Assembly: GCA_001630475.1 (NCBI GenBank)
Contig: KV419411.1
Location: forward strand, 623,153-687,152
Direction of reading: 5' to 3'
Source: Sistotremastrum niveocremeum HHB9708
Taxonomy: Eukaryota > Basidiomycota > Agaricomycetes > Sistotremastrales > Sistotremastraceae
DNA length: 64,000 nt
A model generated the notes under the pieces. That model was given only the letters and a program-made list of their open reading frames with translations. It had not been told where the DNA came from and did no database searches. A program made the translations under genes and the position numbers. Shown piece after piece: positions 53,988 to 60,440 of this stretch. Each line of letters begins with the position of its first letter. Positions within the stretch are counted from its first letter, which is position 1.

Positions 53988-56293
53988 CTAGCTTTCGAGG
54001 TTCATGAGTTGGCTCCAGTCTTGCTGCATGGCAGGGGAGGAGGATTGATGATACTGCACGGCACGCTGACGAAGAGTGTCTGGTGGTGTTATATAGGGGT
54101 TAAGACGAGCATGGAAGAGGAGACAGAGTGACGCACCGACGATGGGGAATATTCTGCCAAGCTTCTGCATAGCGTCGAGAACAATCTGGTATTCGGCATT
54201 CAAGATATCCAAGCTCTCTAAATCGTAGAACGATGCTGATTTTTGGACCGCGGCCATTTCGTTGATGAATACGCCGGCAGTTGACAACCATAGTGTCTAC
54301 GCACGAGTGACGGATGATCAGAACAAAGAGAGATTAATGAAGAGAGAATGACACTCACCCCCATTAAAGGATCCAATATATCATACTGACGAGGCTCAAG
54401 ACTTCGAATGATCTCTAGCACTGCCCGTGCCTCCGTAAGACTTCGGCCCCGAGTATTCTCGTCCATGCTGACAAATGGACTGAAGAGGTTGATACTTGTA
54501 GCATGCAAAAAGGTATGAGCCGACACGAGTCTTGTATCGGCCTCCTTGGAAGAGACACTGGAGATGGAGGGAAGACGGGAAGCGAACAACTCAAGAGCGC
54601 GTTCGAGCGCACTATATCGGATCCAATATTCGTCGGGTAAGACAGTACCCGGTGAGATCGTAGTAGCTTCGAGAGAGAGTACCGAGGCTCGTCTGAAGAG
54701 CGCGGCCGCCTGAGCGAGGAGGGCTTCGATGTTATTAGGCACAGGTTCGTCTGCTGCGCTACACAAGCGCGTGATAGTGTCGGCAAGTCTGCCTGGAACA
54801 ACCTAGATTATACTCAATGCATAAAATCGTACGATACAAGTTAAGCCTACCTCTTCGAACCCCTGCCCAGGCCAAGGTGTCGTAATTTCCATGTCGAGGT
54901 TCGCCATCTGGTTACTGCTGTTGCCGTTCGTGAACAGCACCGATGTCCCGAGGGCGACACTCCAACATCTGTCCATGTAGAAAACTTGCCAGAACACTCG
55001 AATTCTCCTTTCTCTCTCGGACTGAGTCGGCGCCGGCGGAAGTACGGGAGTTCCAACGGTCGGATGTGACCACAATTCGTGACTTCTGCTCGTGCCAGTC
55101 GCGACGCCTTCACGATCGTCTTCGGGCCAATCGATCTGATGAAGCCGACATTGGAGACAAAGAGAGACTGCAGCTGCAGCATGATACATCCCCTCGAGAA
55201 CGTTTCCGTTGATGTAAGAGTGTAAAGCAAGAAGATAACATGTTTTGATGACGTCCACTGTATCTTCGGGACCTGTGAGGGCCTGGTTAAGGGCTTGAGT
55301 CGCGGAAGGGATCAATTTCTCGATGAAAGGGGAAGCCCGCTGAAAGTCGGCGCCGAGGAGATACCCTGCCGTACGTAAAACGAGGCTGTGCGACTCAAAA
55401 GTATTGGACAACCCAGTGATGGGGGTAAGTTGAGTGAGGTGATGGAGAAATGTTTGTTTTCTGTAGTGTGTCAGTCAAAAATAACAAGTCTTTGCACATA
55501 TAGCGACTCACAATTGTTCCCAGAAGGCTGGGTGAAGAGGCGAATCGAGGCTGGGGTATACTGATGAGAGCGATCTAGGAGGTGGAATTGATCCTGTGCG
55601 CATGGAAGGCATGGCAGATCTATGGGGATGGACGGAGCCTGACATCCTCGTCTCGAAAGATGAGAAAGATCCAGCCCGCGAACTTCCCAGACTCGTGTCG
55701 GGAGATCTTGACGATCTCCAACTTTGAGTGGGGGACGATATAGAAGACCCGATAGAAGATTGTGGGGATGATGGAGGGGTGTTTTCGAGTTGTGCCACTT
55801 GAGCTTGAAGCTCTTGGAGACGATCTTCGAGGATTTGATGGCGGCTCCTGTGAACGCCATCATCGTATTGGCATCCATCTTCGCGACAGGCACGTTGGCA
55901 AGCACCACAGTATGGTCTCGCACGGTCGCATTTCTGAAGAGAAAATAATACAGAAAATTAGTCTCTGGAGTCGTGCCAGCGGAATAAAACAAAATGTCTC
56001 ATACCACTTTCATGTCTCTGATGACGCACGATCAACGACGATCTCGCACATTCAGATCTGATACCCACCTGCATGACCGACAACTGGGACCTGCAGGGCG
56101 CCAGTTTGATTTTTTGGAATTACTATGAGTTGAAATTCGGGTGGCGTCGGGGAAGTGATCGAAAATAGGCGTACCAGGGATAAGGAGTATAGCCGGGACC
56201 GGCACTAGAAGGCATCTGGGTCGCAATCATGGATGGATTAAACGGCGTAGTATTTGAGTCAGGAGGGCTGGGTGGCGATGTGGTCGAGTCCAT
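53988..56293 (-). CDS. Zn2Cys6 transcription factor with fungal-specific regulatory domain
   Basis: Nuclear regulator; the target pathway is unknown. Eight exons (56293-56175, 56122-56069, 56017-56005, 55933-55512, 55460-54851, 54802-54359, 54296-54137, 54079-53988) give 637 residues. The zinc cluster is C54-x2-C57-x6-C64-x6-C71-x2-C74-x8-C83 and is split over three exons. The middle one is only 13 nt and is needed to obtain the correct C-x6-C spacing. A coiled coil (RHQILEDRLQELQAQVAQLE) follows. A Ser-rich linker leads to the fungal-specific transcription factor domain: TCYLLALHSYINGNVLEGMY, the RIRVFWQVFYMDRCWSVALG block and ALERALELFASRLPS. The length and domain order are normal for the family. 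It stands in a gene-poor neighbourhood next to the mobile-element zone. Confidence 0.92.
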
Positions 56294-57929
56294 GGTTGTA
56301 GTTGGATTTTAAGCCCAGAGGCCGACTTAGGAACGATAAGCCGGTGGAATTCTCAGGCTCAACCTCACGCCATAACTTACCCCGACAACACTGTAAAGCG
56401 CCCCTAAGACAACATGAGAACTCAACCTGATCCGGTACCGAACGCTGGTCAAGGCCGAGTAGCAGCTGGTCCGACAGCGAGCGGGCAACGTCGAGCTGAA
56501 GAAGGTTGAGCCCCCGTGGCCTAGACCGCATCCTGTCTCATCACTGGCCGTTTCGACGTCGGTCGCAAGACCATTTGGCATTCAGTTCGTTGGTAATTGA
56601 GGGATATCGCTGCTATAGGAAAGGACAGCGTTTGTATCGCCGAGAGCGAGTGAGCTGCCGCACGGAGGTCATCGTCGTCGTGGCGTGTGACAAGGGCAAG
56701 ATAGCTGGGCAGGTCACTGGGCGGGCTGGTGGTCCAATCACTGGACACGGTTAGCAAATTGCAATTGGAAGACTCTGGTTCTGTTTCTTTATGGTATGTG
56801 CAGTCCAATGCGCTCATTATCGCACTTTTCATTTCTCAGCGTACTCATCCAAAGCCCTTTCGGCAGCATTCGAACGGCAGCCGAAACTTTGAACCTCACC
56901 TCAAATTTGTGTTCCTTGAGCTCACATGACCCTCGAACCCTACCCCAGCGAATCTTTGGTCGAAGGGTCAAGCCAAATGAGACAAGCAGCGATCCATCGT
57001 AGCCAGAGCAATCGTCCATCTCTAGTCGTCCACAAAAACCGAAATCTCACCTCGCCGTTTCCTTGCTGAATTCCACTCAATCCCTCTCAAAACACCAGCT
57101 GGCCCAAACCCAGAAACCCTGAATTGTCCGTCCTCGCCCTCAACCACGTCAGTGACACAGAATTGCCCTCGCCTCTTCGCTCGATCCCCGCACCTATCTC
57201 GAGGTGTGCTGCTCAGCCCCATAGAACAGTAGACAAGTGAATGAATGAACCAAAACCTACGTTTTCTGTCTTCAAATCCTGGAGCGCGCGAAAGGAAGTG
57301 TGGTTGATCAAAGAGGTGCGTGTCGGGGCCGTTCCAAGGACACGAAGCCCTCTCACGAGCTCTGAAGCAGTGACGGTTTCGAAATAAGCATGCAGAACAG
57401 CAGACTATCCCGCAATCGCCATTTAAGACAAGAGCGTCTCGCGATTTGACAGGCGTGTCCTGACTTCTTCAATGGACGAAGAATGATAAACCCATATCCG
57501 GGTGGCATTGATAGCTGAGAACTGAGGAACTGCTCACAGCGAGCTTGATGCTCTATAGCTCTCTCTTCGACATATACCTGCGATGCCGAGGGTCTAGACC
57601 GGCGCCAAGCAGCTGGTCTTCGGTGGCCGTCGGCGAACCCTTCGGCGGTGACCGTGGCTGAATATTGTCCCTCAGACTAGACCGTCTTGTTGACCGACAT
57701 GACCAACATAAGCAGATATAATCGATATAATTGCCCTGTAGTTTTCTCAAACGACAACTGCATGAATATCATATATTTTCACTAATGTTACAACATCGAC
57801 GATGATGTGAATTGACCTGGAAGAGGCTTGCGACCATATACTTAGTTCGGTTTGTCTGAGGCATGGAAAACTTGACTAAAGAGGGAGCAGAGCATCAGAG
57901 TTGAATTTTTTCGAGTCCGGATACGCGCA
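56294..57929. other. Intergenic stretch without a supported gene
   Basis: About 1.6 kb between the regulator's start and the tyrosinase relic. The short frames on both strands have no domain. It should hold the regulator's promoter. Confidence 0.45.
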
Positions 57930-57984
57930 TTAGTAATGCTCAGTGCGTCCGAGTCCTCCAGCGCGACCTTCGGTCACGGAGTGC

Positions 57985-57994
57985 AAGACGCGGT
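57985..57994. repeat. Target site duplication of the outer element, left copy
   Basis: AAGACGCGGT, identical to 59451-59460. It belongs to the last tyrosinase exon, where it reads ACCGCGTCTT on the coding strand. Confidence 0.88.
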
Positions 57995-58626
57995 AAGGAT
58001 GAACACGAATATCGCCAAAAAAAAGGTACCCATGGATGTACCTGGGTAGGTACCTGTCTTTTTCATTGTTTACAGGTCCAGGTACACCATCTGGCCAAAA
58101 GTTGACAGGTACAGGTATTGGAAATCTCAAAATTTCATTTATCCAGGTACCTCATGGATATACCTGTCTAAGGACAGGAGTCCTCTGAATCTCAGATCTA
58201 CACACATATCCTCCCATACAAGCTCAAATCTCATTATAAGACTACTTCTATTGGATCAGTATGAGTCAGAGACAAGCATATCTGGGCCTCACTTGAGTTT
58301 TCAGTACCCATTGGGCATCTACTTGGGCATGAGTTGAGGTACTTGGGTTCAATCTGGATACCCAAAAGCACTCAGATACTTGGGTATGGGTGTTCAGATG
58401 GATATTTTTATTACATATGGGTACTCAGGTGCAGATACTTGAGTCCAGTCTGGATACCCACATTACTCAATTCTACCCATATTCATGGACCTGCAGGTAT
58501 ACCTAGGTCACCTGCCAAGGTACCTGAGTCGTTCAAAATCATGTTGCCAAAAATTTTGACAGGTCCAGGTACTGAACCCTGAGGGCCAGGGTACCTGCCC
58601 CTAAGGTACCCATACTCGCGAGTCTA

Positions 58627-59431
58627 CTGTAGTAAATGGACCATAGCGGCGTGTCCCCTGTCCCCAGGGTCCGCCGTGCCGCAATATTTTGAAAATGTCC
58701 CTTGTCCCTTCAGCTTCAAATGAATGAATAAATCTTGAAAATAGTCGAAATAAATCCCCAAAATATTCCTGGCCATGCGCAAACATTGTCTGTGCTTGCC
58801 CGAGGCACTTGCAGCTAGTGTTTGCAAGTCAGGTCACTTAACCGCCAAATAACTGCGACTTAGCCGTAACTTAACCATTTGTGACCTAACCATGGTTAAG
58901 GTCATGGCTCAGAGCTGGTGGTCAAGTCACAGTCATGGACCTCCCGGAAATCCTTGACCGCTTGCCTTAACCAACATGGGTAGATCCTTGTCTGCAGCCT
59001 TCCCCAGGCCTTCTGGTGTGTTCTGCTTGTCATATACATCATATATGAGGTCCAAGAACCCAGATTAAGTAGTAAAAAGTGGAGATTTATGACTTTTTTG
59101 AGGTCATAACCGCATTAACCGGTCAAAGTCAGGTCATGGTCACCCAATTTTGGCTTAACCGTGACCGTTTGCGGTTATAGGTTACAGCAAAACCCCAAAA
59201 AATAACCGCGGTTTGGTTACGGTTAGGGCCTCTGAGGTGCCCATAACCTAACTTAACCCGACTTTCAAACACTACTTGCAGCGCAATTCGAACTAGATAA
59301 CATAGATTTATAATATTTCAGAGCAAATTTTGACATTTTGTCCCTTGTCCCGGACCCTGTTGCCGCGTCGCCGCAGTGTACTTTCGCTGTCCCCTGTCCC
59401 CACCCCCGCCGCAATGGTCTGTTTACTACAG
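58627..59431. mobile_element. Middle nested element with TA-flanked inverted ends
   Basis: The left end CTGTAGTAAATGGACCATAG has an imperfect inverse copy at the right end (AATGGTCTGTTTACTACAG), and both ends are bordered by TA (58625-58626 and 59432-59433). Subterminal CCCCTGTCCCC and CCCTTGTCCC tracts mirror each other. The TA border points to a Tc1/mariner-type mover. It has no coding capacity. It lies inside the outer element, close to that element's right end. Confidence 0.75.
58818..59272. mobile_element. Innermost nested element, hAT-like, 8-bp duplication
   Basis: The ends read TAGTGTTTGCAAGTC and, in inverse, GACTTTCAAACACTA, with CTTGCAGC as an 8-bp direct repeat just outside (58808-58815 and 59275-59282). 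If the terminal TA belongs to the element, its span is 58816-59274. An 8-bp duplication and a TAGTG-like start are typical of hAT elements. The inside is a repetitive field of TTAACC, GGTTAAGG and TAACCGTGACC motifs in both orientations, with no coding frame. Confidence 0.75.
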
Positions 59432-59450
59432 TATATTCGTGTTCATCCTT

Positions 59451-59460
59451 AAGACGCGGT
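59451..59460. repeat. Target site duplication of the outer element, right copy
   Basis: AAGACGCGGT, identical to 57985-57994. Collapsing the two copies leaves the tyrosinase frame continuous, which confirms the borders. Confidence 0.88.
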
Positions 59461-60440
59461 AACTATGATACTTCGAGAGCTGAGTCTCATCCTTGTAATG
59501 GTCTCCGGTACCAACGGCGAGGGAGACCTTCAGAGAAGGAATCGAGTCGAGAGGAACTTCTTCCCCGTAAAGCTAAAGTTGACGAAAAAGTCAATTATTC
59601 CTGCGACAGCACACAATCGGAAACAACACTCACTTTGGTTACTTTCCAATGAAGGTGCTTCTTCAGGTATTCCTCCACGTGATCAGGATGGAGAGAGCTC
59701 AGCGCAATCGAGCTATTTTGGACGGCGTCCAACAACGGAACTGTGACATGGACTTGCCCCGTTGCCAAAGTTTCATCCTCTTGTTGAGAGCGACAATTTC
59801 CACAACCTTCCGGTCCACCGGTTTCTTCGGGACGTGCGCTGAAGTTGTAAACGGTGCCGACTTCTTTGTCCTTGCCGACGTAAATATGAACTTTGAATGC
59901 GTCGCCTCCAAGAGCGAACCTACAGAATGGGTCAAGGGACGATCGTCTAATGTAAACTGAACTCACTTCTTGTAAATAACGTTGACAACGTAATCATGTT
60001 GGGAGGTCTGAACGTCTGAGCCCGAGGTTGAGTCCAAAAGAACGGAACGGCTGTTACTATAAAGGTTGTTGACGGCGGCTCTGATAGATGCGGTGTACAA
60101 AGGCTGGCTGAATTGACCATTCGGCCAGTATTTCTCAAGCCAAGGTTGAAGTTCCGGATAGGAATAACCATATTTCTGCCAATCGCGGATGTCGTCAGAG
60201 TTGAAGTATTGTCCGTGCGCGTTCACATGGAAAGGTGCAAGGCCCCATTTTGGTTTGACTTTTTGACCGGCTGGGGTGGACCAGTTTCCTTCGGGATCGG
60301 TGAGTTGTTGGCTCGGATCACTGAACCAAGCATTGGGGTTCAAAGCTTGCCAGATGGCAAACTGACGATCCACATTACTACATCGATAATCAGCAAGTAG
60401 GCAAGACCAGCGAAATAACTAGTTTACCAATGATCAAGGG

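Follow-up and report, generated by a model that had tools for sequence, protein, structure and literature searches.

The window, the whole stretch of 64,000 nucleotides of Sistotremastrum niveocremeum HHB9708 DNA that was analysed, is located at the end of contig C18 of the genome, which was searched over 34.7 Mb in 111 contigs. A nest of three short mobile elements lies in it, to the left of a tyrosinase gene on the minus strand (frame 59595–60373 (−), Tyrosinase_C E 2.8e-19), whose end at 59595 leaves 135 bp to the outer duplication. Farther left of the nest is a frame with a fungal-specific transcription factor domain (Fungal_trans, 54806–55411 (−)). Sequence comparison within the window gives three concentric inverted-repeat pairs at 57994–59451: the outer pair (57994–58012/59433–59451) is 19 nt long and 100% complementary, the middle pair (58619–58651/59407–59439) is 33 nt and 85%, and the inner pair (58810–58834/59256–59280) is 25 nt and 84%. 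Each level thus has its own inverted ends, as had been read from the letters of the window in the original prediction. An ORF scan found no ORF of ≥110 aa inside the nest, and Rfam found nothing matching in 57500–60000. The features are listed in Table 1; the final two bases of the outer left segment are the TA target of the middle element.

Table 1. Components of the nested insertions and their positions in the window
Feature	Position	Strand	Sequence	Copies elsewhere
Outer 8-bp target duplication, left	57986..57993	.	AGACGCGG	
Outer hAT-like MITE, left segment (633 of 651 bp)	57994..58626	.	starts TAAGGATGAACACGAATA	solo copies L002–L006, 651 bp, 30–34 differences in 633
Middle-element TA duplication, left	58625..58626	.	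TA	5/5 close solo outer copies have GAGTCTATATTCG, without a second TA
Middle TA-flanked MITE, left segment (189 of 338 bp)	58627..58815	.	starts CTGTAGTAAATGGACC	
Inner-element 8-bp duplication, left	58808..58815	.	CTTGCAGC	single CTTGCAGC at the same place in solo middle copy L012
Inner hAT-like MITE (459 bp)	58816..59274	.	TAGTGTTTGCAAGTC...CTTTCAAACACTA	
Inner-element 8-bp duplication, right	59275..59282	.	CTTGCAGC	
Middle MITE, right segment (149 of 338 bp)	59283..59431	.	ends TTTACTACAG	
Middle-element TA duplication, right	59432..59433	.	TA	
Outer MITE, right segment (18 of 651 bp)	59434..59451	.	TATTCGTGTTCATCCTTA	
Outer 8-bp target duplication, right	59452..59459	.	AGACGCGG	

The outer element, with the inner layers included, runs from 57994 to 59451. 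Close full-length copies of it (L002–L006) are 651 bp long, and a 290-bp MITE family has its left 84 bp in common with the outer family. The ends are TAAGG..CCTTA in all 36 outer pairs (measured within the fetched loci, window included). When the terminal T and A are counted as element, the flanks match at 8/8 in 30 of these pairs. As a control, the right flanks were dealt at random among the outer copies; 862 of 36000 pairs then matched at ≥7/8, about the level from self-pairings alone. The six pairs that lack the 8-bp duplication are in L046, L070, L077 (twice), L080, and L081. L077 holds two 290-bp MITE copies (299–588 and 849–1138), and the 8-mers at their flanks are crosswise reverse complements (GTTCATAT with ATATGAAC, CCTCAGAA with TTCTGAGG), as would be expected after an inversion between two oppositely placed MITE copies. 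This reading covers only the two L077 pairs among the six.

The consensus of hAT ends is YARNG, and both the outer ends (TAAGG) and the inner ends (TAGTG) fit it. The outer duplications favour nTnnnnAn: of 60 positions scored, 29 carry the base of the motif, T at 2 or A at 7 (binomial tail 8e-5 against 0.25). The same motif is reported as the target of Hermes, a hAT element (PMC2803484). Duplications of 8 bp are described for hAT elements, together with ends of 5–27 bp (PMC3517528), and for Zisupton (PMC12730594). From the 8-bp duplications, the TAAGG ends, and the T2/A7 preference, we infer that the outer family is probably hAT-like, although the duplications of Zisupton have the same length.

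A domain search located hAT dimerisation domains at 21 places in the genome. Comparison by eye of these places with 100 of the 112 outer-end matches, and reading of one of the 21 loci, that on C39, gave no autonomous element with outer ends. The end match at C39:45943, 2.4 kb from a hAT domain, is not autonomous; it belongs to a 631-bp outer-family copy flanked by an 8-bp duplication of its own, GGAAGTAT. At four places (C42, C47, C68, and C86) an outer end without a partner was considered as an autonomous candidate; all four loci show outer-type MITE sequence, with long N runs in three of them.

A different mover that also leaves 8-bp duplications, for instance a Zisupton (KDZ) or a P-like element, could instead act on the outer family and perhaps on the inner. 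The duplication length known for Zisupton would suit this, as would outer and inner ends that stand here without a linked transposase, but the lean of the duplications to the Hermes target, the fit of both ends to YARNG, and the 21 hAT-domain places in the genome make such a mover unlikely.

Mutator-like target duplications are 9–11 bp, and the outer element had originally been given a 10-bp duplication and a superfamily of its own, which would be of this kind. With the ends used there, each one base shorter than ours, the window does match at 10/10, but only 3 of 34 pairs do so (window included). A T precedes and an A follows these shorter ends in 34/34 paired copies, found with a pattern that excluded both bases, and the T and A are therefore part of the element. 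Beyond them, none of the 36 pairs matches at 9/9 or 10/10, and a Mutator-like outer element is very improbable. The first and tenth letters of the supposed 10-bp repeat are chance matches between flank and element. The false 10-bp signature and the third superfamily arose because the outer ends had been set one base short. Outer and inner duplications are in fact both 8 bp, so that the three different signatures do not stand, and with a hAT-like outer and a hAT-like inner element the nest would hold two superfamilies. A single copy can thus mislead on duplication length: here two letters that agreed by chance made an 8-bp signature look like one of 10 bp and brought in an extra superfamily.

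The inner element was assessed in 36 near-full-length copies, window included, from 40 matches (4 partial matches were left out). The flanks match at 8/8 in 34 copies, at 7/8 in one, and at 2/8 in one (L099); the 8-bp duplication proposed for the hAT-like inner element is thus seen, at ≥7/8, in 35 of the 36. The empty site is present in the solo middle copy L012, where CTTGCAGCGCAA occurs once at the insertion point. Inner duplications have T at 2 or A at 7 in 27 of 70 positions (binomial tail 0.008 against 0.25), a modest fit to nTnnnnAn; A at position 4 and T at position 5 are likewise in excess, at 29 of 70 each, a pattern that differs from the Buster motif. Comparison by eye of 100 of the 197 inner-end matches with the 21 hAT places gave no autonomous element with inner ends. 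A candidate relative at C14:807650–809651 has inner-like ends but is mostly N, and the inner-type ends on C51 and C59 sit in another repeat beside N.

The middle element spans 58627–59431 with the inner element included. Its border of TA, as predicted, is a property of the family: TA is found on both sides in 16 of the 17 non-window copies with both ends, and these 16 have lengths of 337–350 bp. The exception, L020, has an altered right end and no right TA. The family is diverged: even its closest aligned members disagree with the window at 64 of 337 or 338 sites.

A coding relative of the middle family is located on C5 (G000:C5:28624–32400; L130, L134, L135). Its end, from 28624, is 84.5% identical over 97 bp to the MITE copy L026 and 77% identical over 70 bp to the right middle end of the window. 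This end is followed by a 404-aa ORF whose match to Peptidase_C48 (Ulp1) is weak (E 0.024, below the cut-off), and 2.4 kb beyond the ORF is a frame with weak matches to DDE_3 (E 1.6e-4) and DDE_1 (E 0.0016), both below the Pfam cut-offs. Each of the six DDE_1 places in the genome has a relative of the 404-aa ORF at a distance of 1.5–2.2 kb, and four of them (C35, C9 twice, and C42) are matched by the N-terminal transposase ORF of C5; the C9 matches are to 580-aa frames that hold DDE_1 over the cut-off. Because no right end was recognised on reading the C5 locus, we regard it as a one-ended relative and not as a demonstrated master.

The TA duplications and the terminal likeness to the DDE_1/DDE_3-like element on C5 suggest that the middle family is IS630-Tc1-mariner-like. 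The middle MITE may further be a deletion derivative of a two-gene IS630-Tc1-mariner-like transposon with a Ulp1-like cysteine protease beside a DDE_1 transposase, a tentative reading to which we give slightly less than even odds. No description of this arrangement was met in the portions consulted of the literature on Ulp1 with pogo or mariner elements, and the terms Ulp1 and protease are absent from the pogo survey PMC7325037. Two middle ends 9.5 kb apart on C30 were considered as the borders of an autonomous element; between them lie two direct repeats of 851 bp, identical to each other and separated by about 9.1 kb (L015:1641–2491 and L034:537–1387, G000:C30). This MITE copy has probably been split by an LTR-type insertion of about 9.1 kb, likely an LTR retrotransposon.

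All three families exist separately in the genome. A search with 57900–59550 gave at least 44 matches (40 of 110 candidates were scored, so that copy numbers are minimum values). No scored match apart from the window covers the query from end to end; the others hold one layer each, either 57994–58626 alone or 58816–59274 alone. The two halves of the middle element, searched separately, are found at 18 and 19 places, window included. The end sequences of the outer and inner families (TAAGGATGAACACG and TAGTGTTTG) are likewise dispersed: the outer end has 112 genome matches within 2 mismatches as against 6 with the reversed pattern, and the inner end 197 as against 5; for the middle end the numbers are 36 and 0. 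The three inverted-repeat pairs exceed chance because each delimits a repeat family scattered through the genome. All three layers thus occur as solo copies, with the TA duplication of the middle and the 8-bp duplication of the inner element as anticipated, and the proposed nest of three separate insertions is upheld. The result named beforehand as refuting it, genome copies always in the form of the complete unit, was not obtained. A single compound element with subterminal inverted repeats would explain why all three repeat pairs are concentric, but every layer is found alone, each with its own duplications and empty sites, which leaves this reading a negligible probability.

The insertion order is outer, then middle, then inner, and follows from the nesting alone. 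It is the age order first proposed, with the outer element oldest and the hAT-like inner element youngest, and for the outer and inner elements it is consistent with divergence. Among 6 outer copies compared over 633 bp, 15 substitutions are private to the one in the window, which is 30 sites away from its closest relatives; among 28 inner copies compared over 459 bp, the one in the window has 0 private substitutions and is 5 sites away from its closest relative. As the private counts use different copy numbers, the nearest-copy distances (4.7% for outer, 1.1% for inner) are the fairer comparison, and they reflect family age as much as insertion age. Copies of the middle family have diverged far more than those of the outer, although the middle copy is the younger insertion here, and divergence cannot date the middle insertion. 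The claim that the families were active in turn thus holds for the order of these three insertions but not for the ages of the families. The outer copies L002, L003, and L004 differ at 0 or 1 site, and the outer family therefore also moved recently.

Related insertions are seen at other loci. The inner family is also located inside a 290-bp outer-type MITE on C12 (L083:621–1081), and a different 506-bp element with hAT-like ends lies inside another 290-bp MITE on C6 (L078:591–1096). The two elements share an 8-bp insertion site, TATATACT, close to the right end of their separate hosts, whose flanks differ from each other. On C25, a 651-bp copy contains a 1209-bp element (L095:665–1873) with TAGTG..CACTA ends (TAGTGATGG..CCATCACTA) and the 8-bp repeat TACCTCAT. 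The insertion is within about 21 bp of the right end of the host in 3 of 4 nested host copies, window included, which is a small number. By rough copy counts the four MITE families amount to about 44 kb, or 0.13% of the genome. Two of the 36 inner copies are located in MITEs (tail 0.001), but without the window, which was selected for its nest, the count is 1 of 35 (tail 0.044), and we do not claim enrichment of nesting.

With these elements, ends, and duplications, separate existence of each family, and a fixed order, we read the locus as a fungal intergenic region into which non-coding MITEs inserted three times in succession by cut and paste, with a probability of about 0.9. On this reading, a 651-bp hAT-like MITE inserted beside the 3′ end of the tyrosinase gene and duplicated the 8 bp AGACGCGG. 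A 338-bp TA-duplicating, putatively IS630-Tc1-mariner-like MITE then entered at a TA 18 bp from the outer right end, and a 459-bp hAT-like MITE followed mid-way in the middle element, duplicating CTTGCAGC. The transposases would have been supplied in trans by autonomous relatives, presumably of the superfamilies suggested above. The locus thereby delimits three MITE families of a single fungal genome, complete with their duplications and empty sites, and firmly fixes the order in which three insertions reached the same place. Of the results, the connection between the TA family and a possible Ulp1-carrying transposon most deserves to be pursued.

The end sequences of the nest gave no match in the literature text searched, and no description of its families was met in the parts consulted of the literature on nested fungal MITEs. 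The outer and inner elements resemble hAT MITEs such as Mar of Drosophila, which is described as short and non-coding, with 8-bp duplications and short terminal inverted repeats (PMC3517528). In the same account, Mar has Buster-type nnnTAnnn duplications and 11-bp ends, whereas the outer element here leans to nTnnnnAn. The middle element is like IS630-Tc1-mariner/pogo-like MITEs in its TA duplication, inverted ends, and lack of coding capacity; unlike them, its family has as its sole coding relative found an element that also carries an Ulp1-like ORF. The families are new, but the nest is an ordinary one of a well-documented kind, as the account of the DcSto elements of carrot illustrates (PMC3695323). 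There, MITEs are likewise found within MITEs of the same and of other superfamilies; the carrot nests are from a plant, involve Stowaway and Tourist elements, and are described with two levels, whereas the nest described here has three.
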